From the NCBI GenBank assembly GCA_016195815.1, contig JACPYX010000006.1, positions 62,001 to 126,000 on the forward strand: a stretch of 64,000 nt of DNA, read 5' to 3'. This stretch comes from Chloroflexota bacterium (lineage in GTDB: Bacteria; Chloroflexota; Anaerolineae; Anaerolineales; Villigracilaceae). Below, piece by piece: positions 28,255 to 35,176 of the stretch. Below the pieces are notes generated by a model. It was given only the letters and a program-made list of their open reading frames with translations, was not told the origin of the DNA and ran no database searches. Positions within the stretch are counted from its first letter, which is position 1. Every line of letters begins with the position of its first letter. The position numbers and the translations under genes were made by a program.

Positions 28255-29439
28255 ATGCCCATTGATTACCAGCAAATCTACGTTCGCATCAAAGAGATCG
28301 GCGCGGGCGCGCGTGAGAGACGAAAGACTCTGGATGAAAGAAGAAAGAAGGCGCGCGGCCTGCTCGATGCTTACGCGTCTGAATTGGATTTCCTGCGCGC
28401 CAAAGTGGATTCCGCCAAACAGGCCGACGCCAACCTCCGCTGCGCCCTGCCGCTTAATGAGTCGCTTGCTTCATCCTACCCGCCAGCGGCCTCCGTTAAA
28501 GATGCGACTCTCATCGCCGCTGACGGCTCGCAGATCAACCCAGACAGGCACGCGGCTGTCCAATTTGGTTTGATCAATGTCGGCGCAATCATCATGAAAT
28601 TGAGTTCAGGCGAAGCTCCAGAGATTTTTACCGAGAGTGAATTGCTCTACGGCGACGACCTCCTGCCAAACGGAATCCCGATGTCTGAGGGCATGGTGGC
28701 ACTCAAGCGAGATTTGAGCGAGCGGACAAAACTCGATGAATTGTCAAAGGGCATCAAAGGCCCCATCGTCACATTCACCGATGGCCCAATCGAATTGTGG
28801 GGAGCAAAGGGTGAAGATGCGCAATCTTATGCGGAATTTGTTGATAAATATCTGACCATTCTCTCGCGCCTGCAAACGCGCGGCGTCGTCACAGCGGGCT
28901 ACGTAGACAAACCCTCTGCCGATTTGGTCATTCGCCTGCTCGAAATTGCAATGGCCGATAATGAACAAATAAAGAAATTGCGCGAGTATCATCCCTTGCG
29001 CGGCGTGAGCGATCGCTGGCTCTTCGGCGAAAAGGAAAAGCCATTGCTCCCGCCGGGTCATCGCTCGGCAGTGTTTGGGATTCAATCCAGTTCAGAGAAA
29101 AATTATAAAGGCGCGCTGTCGTTACATTTCTTTTACTTGAACGTCGGCGCGGATGGACATCCCTGGCCGGTGCGCGTGGAAATTCCCAAATGGGTCGCGG
29201 ATGATAAAGAGAAACTGGATTTGCTTCACGCGGTTCTGGTCAGTCAGTGCCGTATGATGGGAAGCAAGCCGTATCCATATTTACTTCATCGCGCCCATGA
29301 AACCGCGATGGTGAAGCATGAGGAGAAGGAACAGATCGAGCAGATGCTAACGCAGGAACTTCGCAATCAAAACGAAGAAGTTGACGAAGGCTCCTACAAG
29401 CAATCCGCGAAGGATTTGAAGGGCAGAACACGAATTTAG
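28255..29439 (+). CDS. nurA: DNA double-strand-break repair nuclease NurA
   Basis: 394 residues. NurA is a 5'-3' nuclease that works with the HerA hexameric translocase to resect DNA ends in archaea and some bacteria. The RNase H-like active site begins with ATLIAADGSQI (catalytic Asp near residue 92), and a second acidic region is TFTDGPIELWG (about 171-181). The C-terminal HRAHETAMV motif is conserved in the family. The N-terminal 60 residues form a coiled coil. It is followed by a probable HAS-barrel protein and, after a DUF6056 gene, by HerA. Confidence 0.88.
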   Translation: MPIDYQQIYVRIKEIGAGARERRKTLDERRKKARGLLDAYASELDFLRAKVDSAKQADANLRCALPLNESLASSYPPAASVKDATLIAADGSQINPDRHAAVQFGLINVGAIIMKLSSGEAPEIFTESELLYGDDLLPNGIPMSEGMVALKRDLSERTKLDELSKGIKGPIVTFTDGPIELWGAKGEDAQSYAEFVDKYLTILSRLQTRGVVTAGYVDKPSADLVIRLLEIAMADNEQIKKLREYHPLRGVSDRWLFGEKEKPLLPPGHRSAVFGIQSSSEKNYKGALSLHFFYLNVGADGHPWPVRVEIPKWVADDKEKLDLLHAVLVSQCRMMGSKPYPYLLHRAHETAMVKHEEKEQIEQMLTQELRNQNEEVDEGSYKQSAKDLKGRTRI

Positions 29440-29480
29440 TGTTAGTGCGAGCCTGGTAATCTTCAGTGATCGCCAAGTGC

Positions 29481-29520
29481 AAGATTGCCGCGTCGGCCTT
29501 CGGGCTCCTCGCAATGACAT
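29481..29520. repeat. Half copy of the GTCATTGCGAG repeat family
   Basis: On the minus strand this reads ATGTCATTGCGAGGAGCC, then CGAAGG and a GCGGCAATCTT end. It lies between nurA and the next gene. The other arm is missing. Confidence 0.55.
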
Positions 29521-29531
29521 GAGGAGAATTT

Positions 29532-30134
29532 ATGACAGCACAAATCGAAATCGGACGTTTACTGCGCGCAGGCACAACCGGCTTCATCGCCGGATGCCGC
29601 GTCAATCAATTGGACGCGCCCGCCTTTGGCGCGTTGGTGCGCGCGCCGCTGAGCGAAGGCTATCAAGTCTACGGCCTGATCCACGACATTCACATTGACG
29701 ATGACGGGCTGGTGCGCCAACTCGCCACCGCCGACAACGTCAGCGAGGCAGTGATGCGTGATAACCGCGAACGGCGCATCGTGCCGGTCGAGATGTCCGT
29801 GCTGGCGGTGGGATACGAGCAGGATGGGAAGATATATCATCTGCTTCCGCCGCGTCCGCCGTTGAGTTTGGATGTGATCTATTTGTGCGACGAGAAGGAT
29901 GTGGTGAAATTTACGTCGGCAGGTCATTTGGGATATTTCCGTCATATTTTACGCGCGGAAGATGTACCAGTTGGTGAAGTGTTGGCGGCGCATGTTCAGC
30001 AAACAGACAAAGCACATGGCAAAGAAAGTGGAAAGTGGAAAGAACAGGCCGTGCAAGAGTTGATTACGTTGCTGAGAGATGATTATCCAACATTGATGTC
30101 CGTCCTGAACGCGTTAAGCGATATTGCCGCCTAA
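29532..30134 (+). CDS. Probable HAS-barrel partner protein of NurA-HerA
   Basis: 200 residues, soluble. The first 120 residues are predicted beta-rich: IGRLLRAGTTGFIAGCRVNQ, then FGALVRAPLSEGYQVYGLIHDIHID, then RIVPVEMSVLAVGYEQDG. This pattern resembles the HAS barrel (the N-terminal barrel of HerA and ATP synthase) and the N-terminus of the HerA gene at 31627 (FYGLVTDLQLG). The C-terminal 60 residues are helical. AGGAG lies before the ATG. Position between nurA and herA suggests a role in the same complex, which is inference. No database family can be confirmed here. Confidence 0.7.
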   Translation: MTAQIEIGRLLRAGTTGFIAGCRVNQLDAPAFGALVRAPLSEGYQVYGLIHDIHIDDDGLVRQLATADNVSEAVMRDNRERRIVPVEMSVLAVGYEQDGKIYHLLPPRPPLSLDVIYLCDEKDVVKFTSAGHLGYFRHILRAEDVPVGEVLAAHVQQTDKAHGKESGKWKEQAVQELITLLRDDYPTLMSVLNALSDIAA

Positions 30135-31600
30135 TGTCATTACCGTTGACCATTGCGATACAATCCCAATCTGATACGAATACCATGTCTGAACGAAAAC
30201 GCTTCTGGGCTTCGCTCCCAACAATTACATTTGCAACTCTCGCCTTGGCGGGTTTTGCATATCTTGGTAATTACACACGTTTCATGGCAGACGATTACTG
30301 CTCTGCCTATTACGCCGAAAGATTCGGGTTGCTGCGCTCCGTTTGGTACTGGTATATTACCTGGAGCGGACGTTACACAGCCTTTATCTTCGATTGGCTG
30401 ATATTGACCAAAATCCTGGGGCCCTATGGCGCTCATTTCGTTCCTCCAATCGCCATAGCGGCCTGGATAGCAGCAACTGTTGCCGCCATCTATACCAGCC
30501 TGAAAATGATCGCCTCTCGTTCTATAGTTTTGTGGGTCGCGATTGCAACAGGTACAAGCCTTCTACTTGCACAAATTGTATTGAGTCCCGACATTGCACA
30601 GTCGTATTTCTGGTTGAACGGCATGCGCTCCTATTCATTGCCTTTGGTGATCTTGAGCATCTATGCCTTCCTTTTTCAATGGATTCTGCCGCGTTTGAAG
30701 TCGGACAAAGCTGTTTTCTGGGTGTCCATCATTGCCTTTTGGCTGACCTTTGCCAACGGTGGTTTTAGTGAAACCTATGCAGTCCTCCAGCTTGTCATGT
30801 TGGCGTTTCTAACCGGACTCCGATGGTTTGCAAATGGCAGGAAGCTGGATACGCCGTTCAAGCTCCTTGCCTCGGCGACCCTGGGAGCAATTGCATCAAT
30901 GATTGTCATTGCTCTGTCGCCGGGCAATGCTCTCCGAAAAGCCGCTTTTCCTCCATCTCCCGGCTTAATCAAACTGCTTGAAGTTTCCATGGATGCCTAT
31001 CTTTCTTTCATTCAGGAGATTCTCTTCTCTCCGCAAAAAATCACCGCTTTCATGGGCGCGATATTGGTAAGCGCGTGGGCCGGAGCGGGATATAAAAACG
31101 AAATTGCCCTTCACTGGTGGACGATTCCAACTCAAGTGCTCGGCGGGCTGGCGCTCTCTTTTATCTCTATTCCTCTTGCAGTGTACGGCTACGTTGAACC
31201 GCCGCCGGCGCGCATTCTGAGCATTGCAGTCTTTGCGCTTGTAACCTTTTGGATGAATGCAGGCTTCCTCACTGGGAGTTGGCTCGCGGGCCTTGTGCGT
31301 TCGCCTGCCCGCCTGGAGATTGGGTTGATCGTGCCAGCCAGCCTGCTTATTGGAACCGCGGCCATATTGACTCTGAGTTATGTTTCTGGCAACCAGCAAG
31401 CCTACATGGATTTTGCCCGGAAATGGGATACCGTTGACGCGCAGATACTGCAGGCCCGGGCGCAACGTCAGCCATTTGTGAACATTCCAAAGATGAGCAA
31501 TTGGGCTGGCCTTGACCGCCCGAACGATAATCCGAAATTTTGGGCAACGGCTTGTTATTCGAAATACTATGATATTCAGGTTTTTGGTCCTCCATATTAA
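30134..31600 (+). CDS. DUF6056 family polytopic membrane protein
   Basis: 488 residues with about 10-11 hydrophobic spans. The first extracellular loop has the family pattern MADDYCSAYYAERFG and, further on, WYWYITWSGRYT; a later YFWLNGMRSY motif is also typical. Such proteins resemble GT-C glycosyltransferases, but activity is unproven. The stop of the previous gene (TAATG) overlaps its ATG by 1 nt; an alternative start is the ATG at 30185. It splits the nurA, HAS-barrel and herA series, and its sequence looks more AT-rich than its flanks, suggesting insertion. Confidence 0.8.
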   Translation: MSLPLTIAIQSQSDTNTMSERKRFWASLPTITFATLALAGFAYLGNYTRFMADDYCSAYYAERFGLLRSVWYWYITWSGRYTAFIFDWLILTKILGPYGAHFVPPIAIAAWIAATVAAIYTSLKMIASRSIVLWVAIATGTSLLLAQIVLSPDIAQSYFWLNGMRSYSLPLVILSIYAFLFQWILPRLKSDKAVFWVSIIAFWLTFANGGFSETYAVLQLVMLAFLTGLRWFANGRKLDTPFKLLASATLGAIASMIVIALSPGNALRKAAFPPSPGLIKLLEVSMDAYLSFIQEILFSPQKITAFMGAILVSAWAGAGYKNEIALHWWTIPTQVLGGLALSFISIPLAVYGYVEPPPARILSIAVFALVTFWMNAGFLTGSWLAGLVRSPARLEIGLIVPASLLIGTAAILTLSYVSGNQQAYMDFARKWDTVDAQILQARAQRQPFVNIPKMSNWAGLDRPNDNPKFWATACYSKYYDIQVFGPPY

Positions 31601-31626
31601 TACTCTCTTGCGGGCAGGTGAAAATT

Positions 31627-33315
31627 ATGATTGAAAATAAAGATCAAATCGGCTATCTCGTCGGCGGCGGACTCAAAGAGTCGTTCAGTGTCCGTTTAAC
31701 GGTTGACCCGCTCACGGTCCAGGAAGGCGCGTTCGTGGTCATCGAGAGCGGAGACTTTCAGTTCTACGGCCTCGTCACCGATTTGCAGCTCGGCGCGACG
31801 GATGATCGTTTTGCCGATGAAAAATCAGATCGTTTGCTCCCCGCGCTGGCGAAGGCTTTGCATGGACAAACGCTTTATACAAATCTTGAAGTGTTACCCG
31901 CGTTGATGTTGGAGCGCGGCCCGGAGCCGGGTTCGCGCGAATATGATCAGTGGTTGAAAAACTTAAATGGTCAGCAACCGCGGCCGGGTCCGGTAAAGAC
32001 CGTACCGCCCCATCATGCCGCGGCGCGCATGGCGGGCGAGGGCGACATCGCTGAGATATTCGGCAAAGCAGGCGATCGCGAAGCAGGCAATTTCGTCATC
32101 GGTTACACGCGCGAGCAGGGACATCCCGTTTGTATTGATTTGGAAAAATTCGTCCAGCGCTCGTCGGGAATTTTTGGCGCGACCGGAACGGGCAAGTCGT
32201 TTCTTACGCGCGTCGTGCTGGCCGGGCTGATGCGCTATAACAAAGCGTCGGTGCTGGTGTTCGACATGCACAACGAATATGGTTACGACGACACGGCCTC
32301 AGACACCGGCCTGCGCGTGACAGGATTGAAGACCAAGTTCGCCTCGAAGGTGCGCGTGATCGGGCTGGGAGGCGGCGCAAAGATCCGCGGCTCTGCGCCG
32401 GACTTCAACCTTGAGATCGCGGAAAGCGACATCTCCACCGCTGACATCGAACTGCTGAGCCGCGAACTCGATTTAAAAGAGACGACTGCCACCACGCTCG
32501 ACGCGCTGTGGAATTCGTTCAAGCGCGATTGGTTCGGCGAATTCAGGAACATGACCCAGGAAATTATTACAACTGAAGATGGAAAGAAAGTTCCCGCGAA
32601 TGGAAGTGTGGCCGCCTGGGCCAATGCCAACGGAGTCAATGTGATGGCGGCGGAAGCTTTGCACAACAAACTGCGACGGTTGTTCAACAAGGAATACATC
32701 GCCACCAGGCCCGCGGCAGACTCGATCAAGGAGATCATCTCGTCGCTCGAAAACGGGCAACACATCGTGCTGTCGTTCGGCGAATTCGAGACCGATTTGG
32801 ATTATCTGCTTGTCTCGAATCTTCTGACGCGGCGCATCCGCGAAGCGTGGGAGAAGAAGACCAACGCGTTTAGAACGTCGGGCAAAGAAGAGCCGCGCCA
32901 ACTGGTGATCGTGATCGAGGAGGCGCACAAACTTTTGAATCGCGAGATGGCGGCGCAGACCACCTTCGCCACCATCGCGCGCGAATTGAGAAAATATTAT
33001 GTGACCCTGCTGGTCATCGACCAGCGCCCATCGCAAATCTATGACGAAGTCATGTCGCAATTGGGGACGCGCATCTCCGGCTGGCTGGGGGACGATGACG
33101 ACATCCATGCCGTGCTCTCGGGCCTGGCGGGACGCGAGGCCCTGCGCGGTATGCTGGCGCGACTGCAACCGAAGGAGGAAGTTTTGCTCTTGGGCTGGGG
33201 AGTGCCGATGCCGTTACCGGTCAAGTCACGCAGATACGATGATGAGTTTTGGAAGGATTTGCTCGGCAGCGCGAAGCGGAGCAAGGATCAGAATTTGAAG
33301 GAGCTGGGCTTCTAA
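31627..33315 (+). CDS. herA: HerA-type DNA translocase ATPase
   Basis: 562 residues. Hexameric AAA+/FtsK-related ATPase that drives DNA through the NurA nuclease. Residues 1-75 form the N-terminal HAS barrel; Walker A is GATGTGKS at 184-191; Walker B is LVIVIEEAHKLLN (about 432-444), followed by the arginine-finger-like region IARELRKYYVTLLVIDQRPSQIYDEV typical of HerA. The DUF87 domain covers the central part. ATG at 31627 has AGGTGA 6-7 nt upstream; a GTG at 31618 is less likely. Completes the nurA module from 28255. Confidence 0.9.
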   Translation: MIENKDQIGYLVGGGLKESFSVRLTVDPLTVQEGAFVVIESGDFQFYGLVTDLQLGATDDRFADEKSDRLLPALAKALHGQTLYTNLEVLPALMLERGPEPGSREYDQWLKNLNGQQPRPGPVKTVPPHHAAARMAGEGDIAEIFGKAGDREAGNFVIGYTREQGHPVCIDLEKFVQRSSGIFGATGTGKSFLTRVVLAGLMRYNKASVLVFDMHNEYGYDDTASDTGLRVTGLKTKFASKVRVIGLGGGAKIRGSAPDFNLEIAESDISTADIELLSRELDLKETTATTLDALWNSFKRDWFGEFRNMTQEIITTEDGKKVPANGSVAAWANANGVNVMAAEALHNKLRRLFNKEYIATRPAADSIKEIISSLENGQHIVLSFGEFETDLDYLLVSNLLTRRIREAWEKKTNAFRTSGKEEPRQLVIVIEEAHKLLNREMAAQTTFATIARELRKYYVTLLVIDQRPSQIYDEVMSQLGTRISGWLGDDDDIHAVLSGLAGREALRGMLARLQPKEEVLLLGWGVPMPLPVKSRRYDDEFWKDLLGSAKRSKDQNLKELGF

Positions 33316-34554: not shown

Positions 34555-34857
34555 ATGAGCAAGCTCAAAATCAAAGTACCGCGCAAGGAATTGGTGGAGT
34601 TTTGCCGAAGGAATCACATCCGAAAACTGGCGTTTTTCGGCTCAGTCCTGCGCGACGATTTTGGCCCGAACAGCGATATTGATATTCTGGTGGAATTCGA
34701 ACCAGGGCAAACGCCGGGGTTTGCGTTTTTTGCGATGCAGGAAGAACTGGGCAAAATCCTTGGGCGCAAGGTGGATTTGAACACGGTTGGCTTCCTGAGT
34801 AAGTATTTTCGCGACGAGGTCGTTCGTGAGTCAGAGGTGGAGTATGTCCAGGCATGA
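34555..34857 (+). CDS. mntA: Minimal nucleotidyltransferase (MntA-type antitoxin)
   Basis: 100 residues, nucleotidyltransferase fold with the full G-S-x10-D-x-D active site: Gly29-Ser30 and Asp41/Asp43 in SDIDILVEF. In MNT/HEPN systems this protein AMPylates a tyrosine on the HEPN toxin and thus blocks it. The neighbour at 34844 is the HEPN partner and overlaps it by 14 nt. A TATAAT box 7 nt upstream predicts a leaderless transcript. Confidence 0.9.
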   Translation: MSKLKIKVPRKELVEFCRRNHIRKLAFFGSVLRDDFGPNSDIDILVEFEPGQTPGFAFFAMQEELGKILGRKVDLNTVGFLSKYFRDEVVRESEVEYVQA

Positions 34858-35176
34858 GGTAAAGGTTTTCTTACAACACATGCTCGAACATTCTCAAAAG
34901 GCTATTGCACTTTCAAGGAATAGAAAAAGAAGCGACCTTGACGAAGACCTATCTTTCAATCTCGCTCTTACTCGCCTAATCGAAATCATCGGAGAAGCCG
35001 CCAATCGCGTCCCCAAAGAGTTTCAAGAAAATCACCCTGAGATTCCATGGCCGCAAATCATTGGAATGCGAAACCGACTAATCCATGGATACGATGAAGT
35101 GGATTTCGATTTTCTCTGGAGTGTCGTTAAAAACGACCTGCCAAAATTAATCGCGCAATTGGAAAATATTCTTTAA
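34844..35176 (+). CDS. hepT: HepT-like HEPN toxin (DUF86)
   Basis: 110 residues, helical HEPN domain of the DUF86/HepT group. The RNase motif R-x4-H is intact: Arg76 and His81 in GMRNRLIHGYDEVD. The tyrosine AMPylated by MntA in the known system would be Tyr83 in HGY. ATG at 34844 is taken over a GTG at 34826, since GAGGTGG lies before it and the start fits the family's usual length. It overlaps mntA by 14 nt and is the effector of this type VII toxin-antitoxin pair. Confidence 0.9.
   Translation: MSRHEVKVFLQHMLEHSQKAIALSRNRKRSDLDEDLSFNLALTRLIEIIGEAANRVPKEFQENHPEIPWPQIIGMRNRLIHGYDEVDFDFLWSVVKNDLPKLIAQLENIL

Follow-up and report, generated by a model that had tools for sequence, protein, structure and literature searches.

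The DNA-end-processing machine formed by the nuclease NurA and the translocase HerA is already known; what appears to be new in the locus described here is a stand-alone HAS-barrel protein kept with it. The locus lies in a 64,000-nucleotide stretch (hereafter the window) from a Chloroflexota bacterium of the Villigracilaceae (assembly GCA_016195815.1, contig JACPYX010000006.1, positions 62,001 to 126,000) and comprises, all on the + strand and in this order, nurA, the gene for a 200-residue protein, the gene for a 488-residue membrane protein, and herA. We refer to the 200-residue product of 29532-30134 as HASx, HAS standing for HerA-ATP synthase. We propose, with a probability of about 0.6, that the NurA-HerA machine has HASx as a third, dedicated subunit, which works as an adaptor between NurA and HerA. 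Gene order and co-occurrence support such a putative three-component machine, whereas we infer that HASx binds HerA or NurA and does so at the HAS face of HerA.

A first-pass annotation of the window had described NurA, a HAS-barrel-like protein and HerA in one locus and had suggested a three-component bacterial machine for end resection. All three proteins are present (PF09376, a match to PF09378 below its cut-off, and PF01935), and the HASx gene does lie between nurA and herA, although the genes are not contiguous, as the membrane protein gene, which that annotation had not mentioned, precedes herA. The suggestion of a three-component machine agrees with the gene order and co-occurrence described below, except that "bacterial" is too narrow, since the gene also occurs in putative archaeal mre11-rad50-nurA-X-herA clusters.

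Conservation of HASx with NurA and HerA in Chloroflexota

Of 41 close relatives, counting the window's own genome, 35 had a single HASx match each. In the 20 relatives whose loci were fetched, nurA always preceded HASx, and herA was found in 16, some of the stretches stopping at contig ends. The best 80 of 291 relatives from a contig scan, all Chloroflexota by their record titles and some of them the same genomes as the 20 fetched relatives, were studied as named loci. Upstream of HASx, nurA was identified in 78 of these 80 (one locus was cut by the contig end and in one the gene was not found), and a downstream herA was identified in 64, a further 9 loci being truncated at a contig end and the remaining 7 showing no herA in the stretch. 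Gene order was therefore kept in relatives, HASx remaining with nurA, herA or both, contrary to what the first-pass annotation had named as evidence against its proposal.

We then considered a phylum sample of 301 genomes, again with the window's own genome. One HASx profile, designated type A, identified HASx in 115 genomes, 114 of which also had NurA (PF09376), a protein found in 187 genomes overall. A nurA gene was upstream, on the same strand and within 4 kb of type-A HASx in 76 of the 89 genomes with a listed NurA position. Type-A HerA, counted in 118 genomes after the 6 weakest of 124 were dropped, was found together with type-A HASx in 114 of the 115 HASx genomes. When both types of HASx (see below) were pooled, 172 genomes had HASx, 187 had NurA, 169 had both and 111 had neither; the corresponding Fisher value (1.5e-58), which assumes that related genomes are independent, should not be read as a probability. 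By taxonomic family, using hand-copied labels, HASx occurred in 56 families, all 56 of which also had NurA, and 7 families had NurA only. With HASx in 169 of the 187 NurA genomes, a two-component type, in which no third protein is kept with the pair, does not describe these genomes.

The association was also found where the genes are not neighbors. Among the 88 genomes with listed positions of all three genes, a set that rests on the NurA positions listed, 46 have both partners within 8 kb of HASx, 30 have only NurA at that distance, 6 have only HerA and 6 have neither, these last including one case near a contig end (G050) and one single-contig genome (G200). Since the three genes lie apart in some genomes, mere operon inertia is disfavored as the cause of their co-occurrence. 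In addition, a genome from the window's own genus (G005, 98% complete) lacked HASx, NurA and type-A HerA, which is a joint loss of the three genes.

Two further observations concern the divergence of the module. The one type-A HASx genome with no NurA match (G176; locus L217, contig G176:C12) has a herA interrupted by stops, so that either the module is decaying or the sequence contains errors. In 49 triples of NurA, HASx and HerA (L052-L131), identity to the window ranged from 48 to 84% for NurA and from 72 to 85% for HASx; either NurA diverges faster than HASx or it has been replaced, as these identities may be read.

A second type of HASx and its occurrence on haloarchaeal plasmids

Of the NurA genomes, 73 had no type-A HASx, and 20 NurA loci from these were inspected. 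Eight of the 20 have a gene of about 197 codons flanked by nurA and a diverged herA; a ninth has such a gene next to nurA, but its stretch shows no herA. In the other 11 no HASx or herA was found near nurA. A profile of this protein, designated type B (A5, 7 sequences), aligned with type A over 154 columns (E 1.1e-9, probability 96%). Type B was identified in 58 of the 301 genomes, so that the idea of HASx being missing from NurA-only genomes was rejected, all but 18 of the 73 having type B. The two types occur together only in G082, where one contig (G082:C142) has a match to type-A HASx, weak and partial, 96 bases ahead of a type-A HerA, and another (G082:C275, L233) has a type-B HASx with HerA. 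An SMC/Rad50-like ATPase gene adjoins or is near the diverged nurA in 6 of 8 inspected loci without HASx or herA (L183-L186, L190, L193).

A further 20 type-B loci were fetched, picked mainly from genomes in which nurA is elsewhere. HASx was upstream of herA and on the same strand in all 20, at a distance of no more than about 215 bases in 19 of them and of 585 bases in L239, the only one of these loci with nurA in the stretch. HASx thus stays with herA where nurA is elsewhere, as in the type-B group, and with nurA where herA is elsewhere, as in the 30 genomes above.

A tblastn search of 72,556 plasmids with a type-B protein identified four records, all from Halobacteria (E 1e-19 to 2e-10, 30-34% identity); the same search with the window HASx gave no match. 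On three of these plasmids the genes run in one direction and encode a metallophosphoesterase, an SMC family ATPase, NurA, HASx and, last, a protein annotated as ATP-binding or DUF87, HASx itself being annotated as hypothetical; on the fourth HASx is ahead of an ATP-binding protein, the record start cutting off the rest. Pfam searches of the L242 record identified Metallophos, SMC/SbcC-type domains with a sub-cut-off match to the Rad50 zinc hook, NurA and the HerA central domain, and no Pfam family was found in the four haloarchaeal HASx proteins themselves. The metallophosphoesterase and SMC ATPase are probably Mre11 and Rad50, which would make these mre11-rad50-nurA-HASx-herA clusters. PF09376 also matched the Haloferax volcanii control genome, in conflict with the statement in PMC7776575 that this species is without HerA or NurA.

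Predicted fold of HASx

The sequence of HASx matched PF09378 at 15.5 bits (E 0.019, residues 23-66), below the gathering cut-off of 25.2 bits, and the same profile was found at E <= 1 in 13 of 17 aligned HASx members, that of the window included (best 0.0049). HASx is a 200-residue protein with no match to an ATPase family in Pfam and is therefore not itself a HerA. When HASx was compared by sequence with the PDB, no convincing match emerged (best E 1.2, 0.95 and 1.8).

An AlphaFold2 model of HASx, for which the input was 64 sequences (that of the window and 63 from the 80 named loci), had a mean predicted local distance difference test score (pLDDT) of 84.4 and a predicted template modelling score of 0.80. 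The model has a barrel at residues 5-118 followed by helices at 121-199. Its elements are, in order, four strands, a hairpin of helices 60-66 and 72-81, strands 83-97 and 115-118 and helix 121-128, and in place of a motor there is a tail of helices 136-140, 147-180 and 185-199. Foldseek identified 56 matches to this model in the PDB at E <= 0.001, and the 50 listed were all HerA or HerA-like translocases, comprising HerA alone, HerA with NurA, SIR2 or DUF4297, and TdpAB; the entries that bear the title "a bacterial protein" are among them as proteins with the HerA central domain. In VIA-align the top 24 rows were likewise HerA-family chains (Z 12.9 to 10.8), below which came mainly F1-ATPase barrels, from Z 10.2 down. 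The best of these matches was 8yhx_A (Z 12.9, root-mean-square deviation 3.8, 114 residues), and others included HerA chains from Deinococcus (7wrx_E, 11.7), Thermococcus (9x1m_A, 11.2) and Sulfolobus (4d2i_A, 11.0); the tail past residue 162 is hardly covered by this list. As modelled, HASx is a HerA-type HAS barrel that lacks the RecA-like motor, and the structure match rules out a chance resemblance to HAS barrels. The HAS-barrel-like character and not an unrelated fold, as the first-pass annotation had foreseen, is thus what was predicted, the profile check bearing this out only at a score below the cut-off.

The HerA of the window has its own HAS barrel, which the first-pass annotation had placed at residues 1-75. 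The barrel is there (PF09378, 20.7 bits at residues 11-68, also under the cut-off of 25.2), but in an AlphaFold2 model with a pLDDT of 76.7 the whole domain extends over about residues 10-148. Its four strands are followed by a helix at 75-83, a strand at 88-99, an additional helix at 107-115, a strand at 135-138 and a helix at 141-148, after which the RecA part begins. HASx and this domain are therefore predicted to have the same order of elements, in which a helix separates strand 4 from strand 5, although in HerA this helix was modelled at low confidence (residues 60-64 and 77-86 below 50). The position between strands 4 and 5 is that of the NurA-binding element of HerA, and by element order it is occupied in HASx by the helical hairpin at residues 57-82, in which D57, D58, Q63, R79 and R82 are invariant in 17 of 17 sequences. 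Outside the hairpin, G33, G94 and F127 of the window protein are kept in 15 of 15 aligned type-A, type-B and haloarchaeal HASx. Because the element order equals that of the HerA HAS domain, with the helix at the NurA-binding place included, the earlier suggestion of an extra docking ring or an adaptor for NurA is a plausible one, as far as the models go. We found no support from profile comparison for HASx being a recent duplicate of HerA, a comparison in which hhalign had low power; even the two sets of HerA N-termini gave no link (E 0.016).

Proposed role of HASx and alternative explanations

That HASx is a functional partner of NurA and HerA is, in our opinion, very probable. The alternative to a partnership of any kind, namely that an ordinary beta-barrel gene has come to lie in a conserved operon by chance or history, would agree with the weak Pfam score of HASx, but we consider it highly improbable in view of the fold, the two diverged types, co-occurrence also where the genes are unlinked, the joint loss and the haloarchaeal clusters. 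A partnership in an anti-phage HerA-nuclease system, with HASx as a sensor or adaptor, is improbable to a lesser degree. HerA is a common motor of defense systems, PADLOC models of HerA were matched (best 5.1e-32) in a scan that covered the four locus proteins, and a nucleotidyltransferase/HepT-like pair with a toxin-antitoxin layout is 1.2 kb downstream of herA; the destruction of foreign DNA has also been suggested as a possible role of HerA-NurA (PMC12977600, in the part available). However, the presence of HASx in 35 of 41 close relatives is less patchy than expected of a defense system, the haloarchaeal linkage is to a putative mre11-rad50, and HASx had no match in 50,697 phage records. 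In PHROGs, neither type of HASx nor NurA was matched.

Since a motor-less HAS protein is kept with a motor that bears a HAS domain and a nuclease that binds to one, HASx would most simply act at the HerA-NurA interface, and there three roles can be envisaged. As an adaptor, the role we somewhat favor, HASx would sit at the HAS face of the HerA ring and join or align the NurA dimer there, its two-helix tail standing in the place of the motor. The HerA hexamer would thread duplex DNA through its ring with ATP, and the duplex would thereby be fed into NurA and cut. HASx might instead be a brake or loading regulator that caps the HAS face of HerA in competition with NurA. Its displacement would require a DNA end or Mre11-Rad50, and intact DNA would thereby be spared. 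The shared fold, with a helix at the NurA-binding place, would allow such competition, HASx pairs with herA where nurA is elsewhere, and an SMC/Rad50-like gene is near nurA in 6 of 8 inspected loci. We nevertheless regard a brake as rather unlikely: HASx accompanies NurA almost as strictly as it does HerA, which fits a subunit at least as well, and we know of no precedent for such an inhibitor, although none was searched for. Less likely again is a role as a ring subunit, in which the HASx barrel would occupy positions within the HAS ring of HerA or double that ring, giving a mixed ring like that of F1 alpha/beta and setting its stoichiometry or opening. HAS barrels pack side by side in the rings of HerA and F1, and the fold is common to HASx, HerA and the F1 barrels, but HASx has no RecA part with which to fill a place in the ring. 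Types A and B are also closer to each other (E 1.1e-9) than to the HAS domains of the neighboring HerA proteins, which by this weak method disfavors a simple exchange of domains. Of these three, the adaptor is preferred because of the nearly equal strictness of co-occurrence with NurA and HerA, and because a two-fold NurA dimer would have to meet a six-fold ring.

Several findings weigh against the adaptor proposal. The HASx segment at the place of HerA's NurA-binding element has 6 acidic and 5 basic residues and no acidic patch, and the profile similarity of HASx to the N-terminus of the neighboring HerA is weak (E 0.008 and 0.09). The association has exceptions: NurA without HASx in 18 of 187 genomes, HASx without NurA in three (G048, G176 and G289), type-A HASx without type-A HerA in 1 of 115 (G326), and type-A HerA without type-A HASx in 4 of 118 (G063, G171, G211 and G265, the first and last of which are also without NurA). 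Co-occurrence was counted over related, non-independent genomes and without an unrelated patchy gene as a control. Distance correlations over the 49 triples and the window were low (HASx-NurA r 0.23, HASx-HerA 0.37) and are not used as support. Lastly, six HerA and two NurA of Deinococcus and of Thermococcus assemble without a third protein in the available parts of PMC9960219 and PMC12977600, and in Thermus strains with a complete nurA its stop overlaps the start of hepA, with no gene in between (PMC5448004, likewise in part).

Should HASx be an obligate subunit, a machine reconstituted from two proteins would be incomplete for the lineages that carry HASx. Taking this further, we tentatively speculate, at less than even odds, that the NurA-HerA machines of Chloroflexota, haloarchaea and perhaps others have three subunits, with HASx forming a separate collar, set between the ring of HerA and the dimer of NurA, that controls loading on DNA ends, and that the two-protein complexes studied are simplified forms. 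The role of NurA-HerA is in dispute, 5'-strand resection having been proposed in PMC9960219 and the cutting of both strands, with resection doubted, in PMC12977600, to judge from the available parts of both; HASx, if a true subunit, would be a new testable variable here. In haloarchaea grown in pure culture (the L242 record), one "hypothetical" gene is a direct target for the genetics of DNA-end repair.

The window locus and its neighboring genes

The window genome is assembled in 23 contigs totalling 3.16 Mb, and its nearest named relatives are metagenome-assembled genomes of Anaerolineae/Chloroflexi. The locus begins with nurA (28255-29439, + strand), which encodes a 394-residue NurA nuclease (PF09376, E 1.7e-19) whose D90 (in ADGSQ), D176 and H325 are invariant in 10 of 10 aligned NurAs; we take such acidic residues to be the active site. 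An AGGAG resembling a ribosome-binding site (29522-29526, + strand) is ahead of the HASx gene (29532-30134, + strand), which overlaps the membrane protein gene (30134-31600, + strand) by 1 base (TAATG). An apparent NurA-HASx fusion in three genomes (stop-to-stop frames of 468-548 residues; G042, G054 and G218) proved to be overlapping open reading frames in different frames, no systematic search for fusions having been made.

The 488-residue membrane protein is polytopic, with 7 hydrophobic segments, and searches of Pfam, NCBIfam and PADLOC gave no family for it at E <= 1. A gene resembling it was found in the same place in only 3 of the 80 named relatives (L052, 61%; L053, 68%; L110, 43%), and for this reason it is probably a bystander outside the NurA-HerA machine. 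The HerA-type translocase with its own HAS domain is encoded at 31618-33315 (+ strand; PF01935, E 1e-30). For herA, the ATG at 31627 is a more likely start than the GTG at 31618, based on an AGGTGA five bases upstream of that ATG. The Walker A residues G187, G190, G192, K193 and S194 and the motif E434-K438 (EEAHK) are invariant in 50 of 50 aligned sequences. By its NurA-domain protein and HerA ATPase, both with conserved motifs, the locus can be classed from sequence as a NurA-HerA locus. Further downstream, at 34555-35176, a nucleotidyltransferase (PF01909) and a HepT-like protein (PF01934) are encoded in the layout of an MNT-HEPN toxin-antitoxin pair.

Comparison with known systems

Among open-licence papers, covered as listings and passages, we found no account of a stand-alone HAS protein that partners NurA-HerA; Iyer et al. 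2004, which reportedly treats the FtsK-HerA superfamily, lies outside that set and may mention one. A "HAS barrel domain protein" of the cyanobacterial UCYN-A1 appears with a NurA domain protein in a family table of the UCYN-A1 group, although it could be HerA itself (PMC12234771, in the part available). HASx shares a predicted fold and a weak profile match with the PF09378 domain, and it differs in being a stand-alone protein with a helical tail, the other HAS barrels that we met being N-terminal parts of HerA-family or F1-ATPase chains. The locus also differs from the SIR2-HerA and DUF4297-HerA anti-phage systems, as no SIR2 or DUF4297 was found in the four locus proteins or the next gene.

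Closer parallels are provided by the NurA-HerA systems that have been studied. That of Deinococcus radiodurans, a two-protein complex of 6 HerA and 2 NurA (PMC9960219), has a NurA and a HerA with a NurA-docking HAS domain as does the window, and HASx matched this HerA by VIA-align at Z 11.7. In Thermococcus, two NurA and six HerA form a hetero-octamer (PMC12977600), and in the solved complexes the NurA dimer is carried on the HAS face of the HerA hexamer (PMC12977600, PMC9960219). The accounts available in these papers place the contact of NurA at helix alpha1 of the HerA HAS domain and the loop before it in Thermococcus (PMC12977600), and at the acidic residues 78, 80 and 81 of HerA in Deinococcus (PMC9960219). 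In Thermus, as described in part of PMC5448004, nurA is directly ahead of the herA homologue hepA. The archaeal mre11-rad50-nurA-herA operon has the same machine parts, to which the haloarchaeal plasmids add HASx between nurA and herA.

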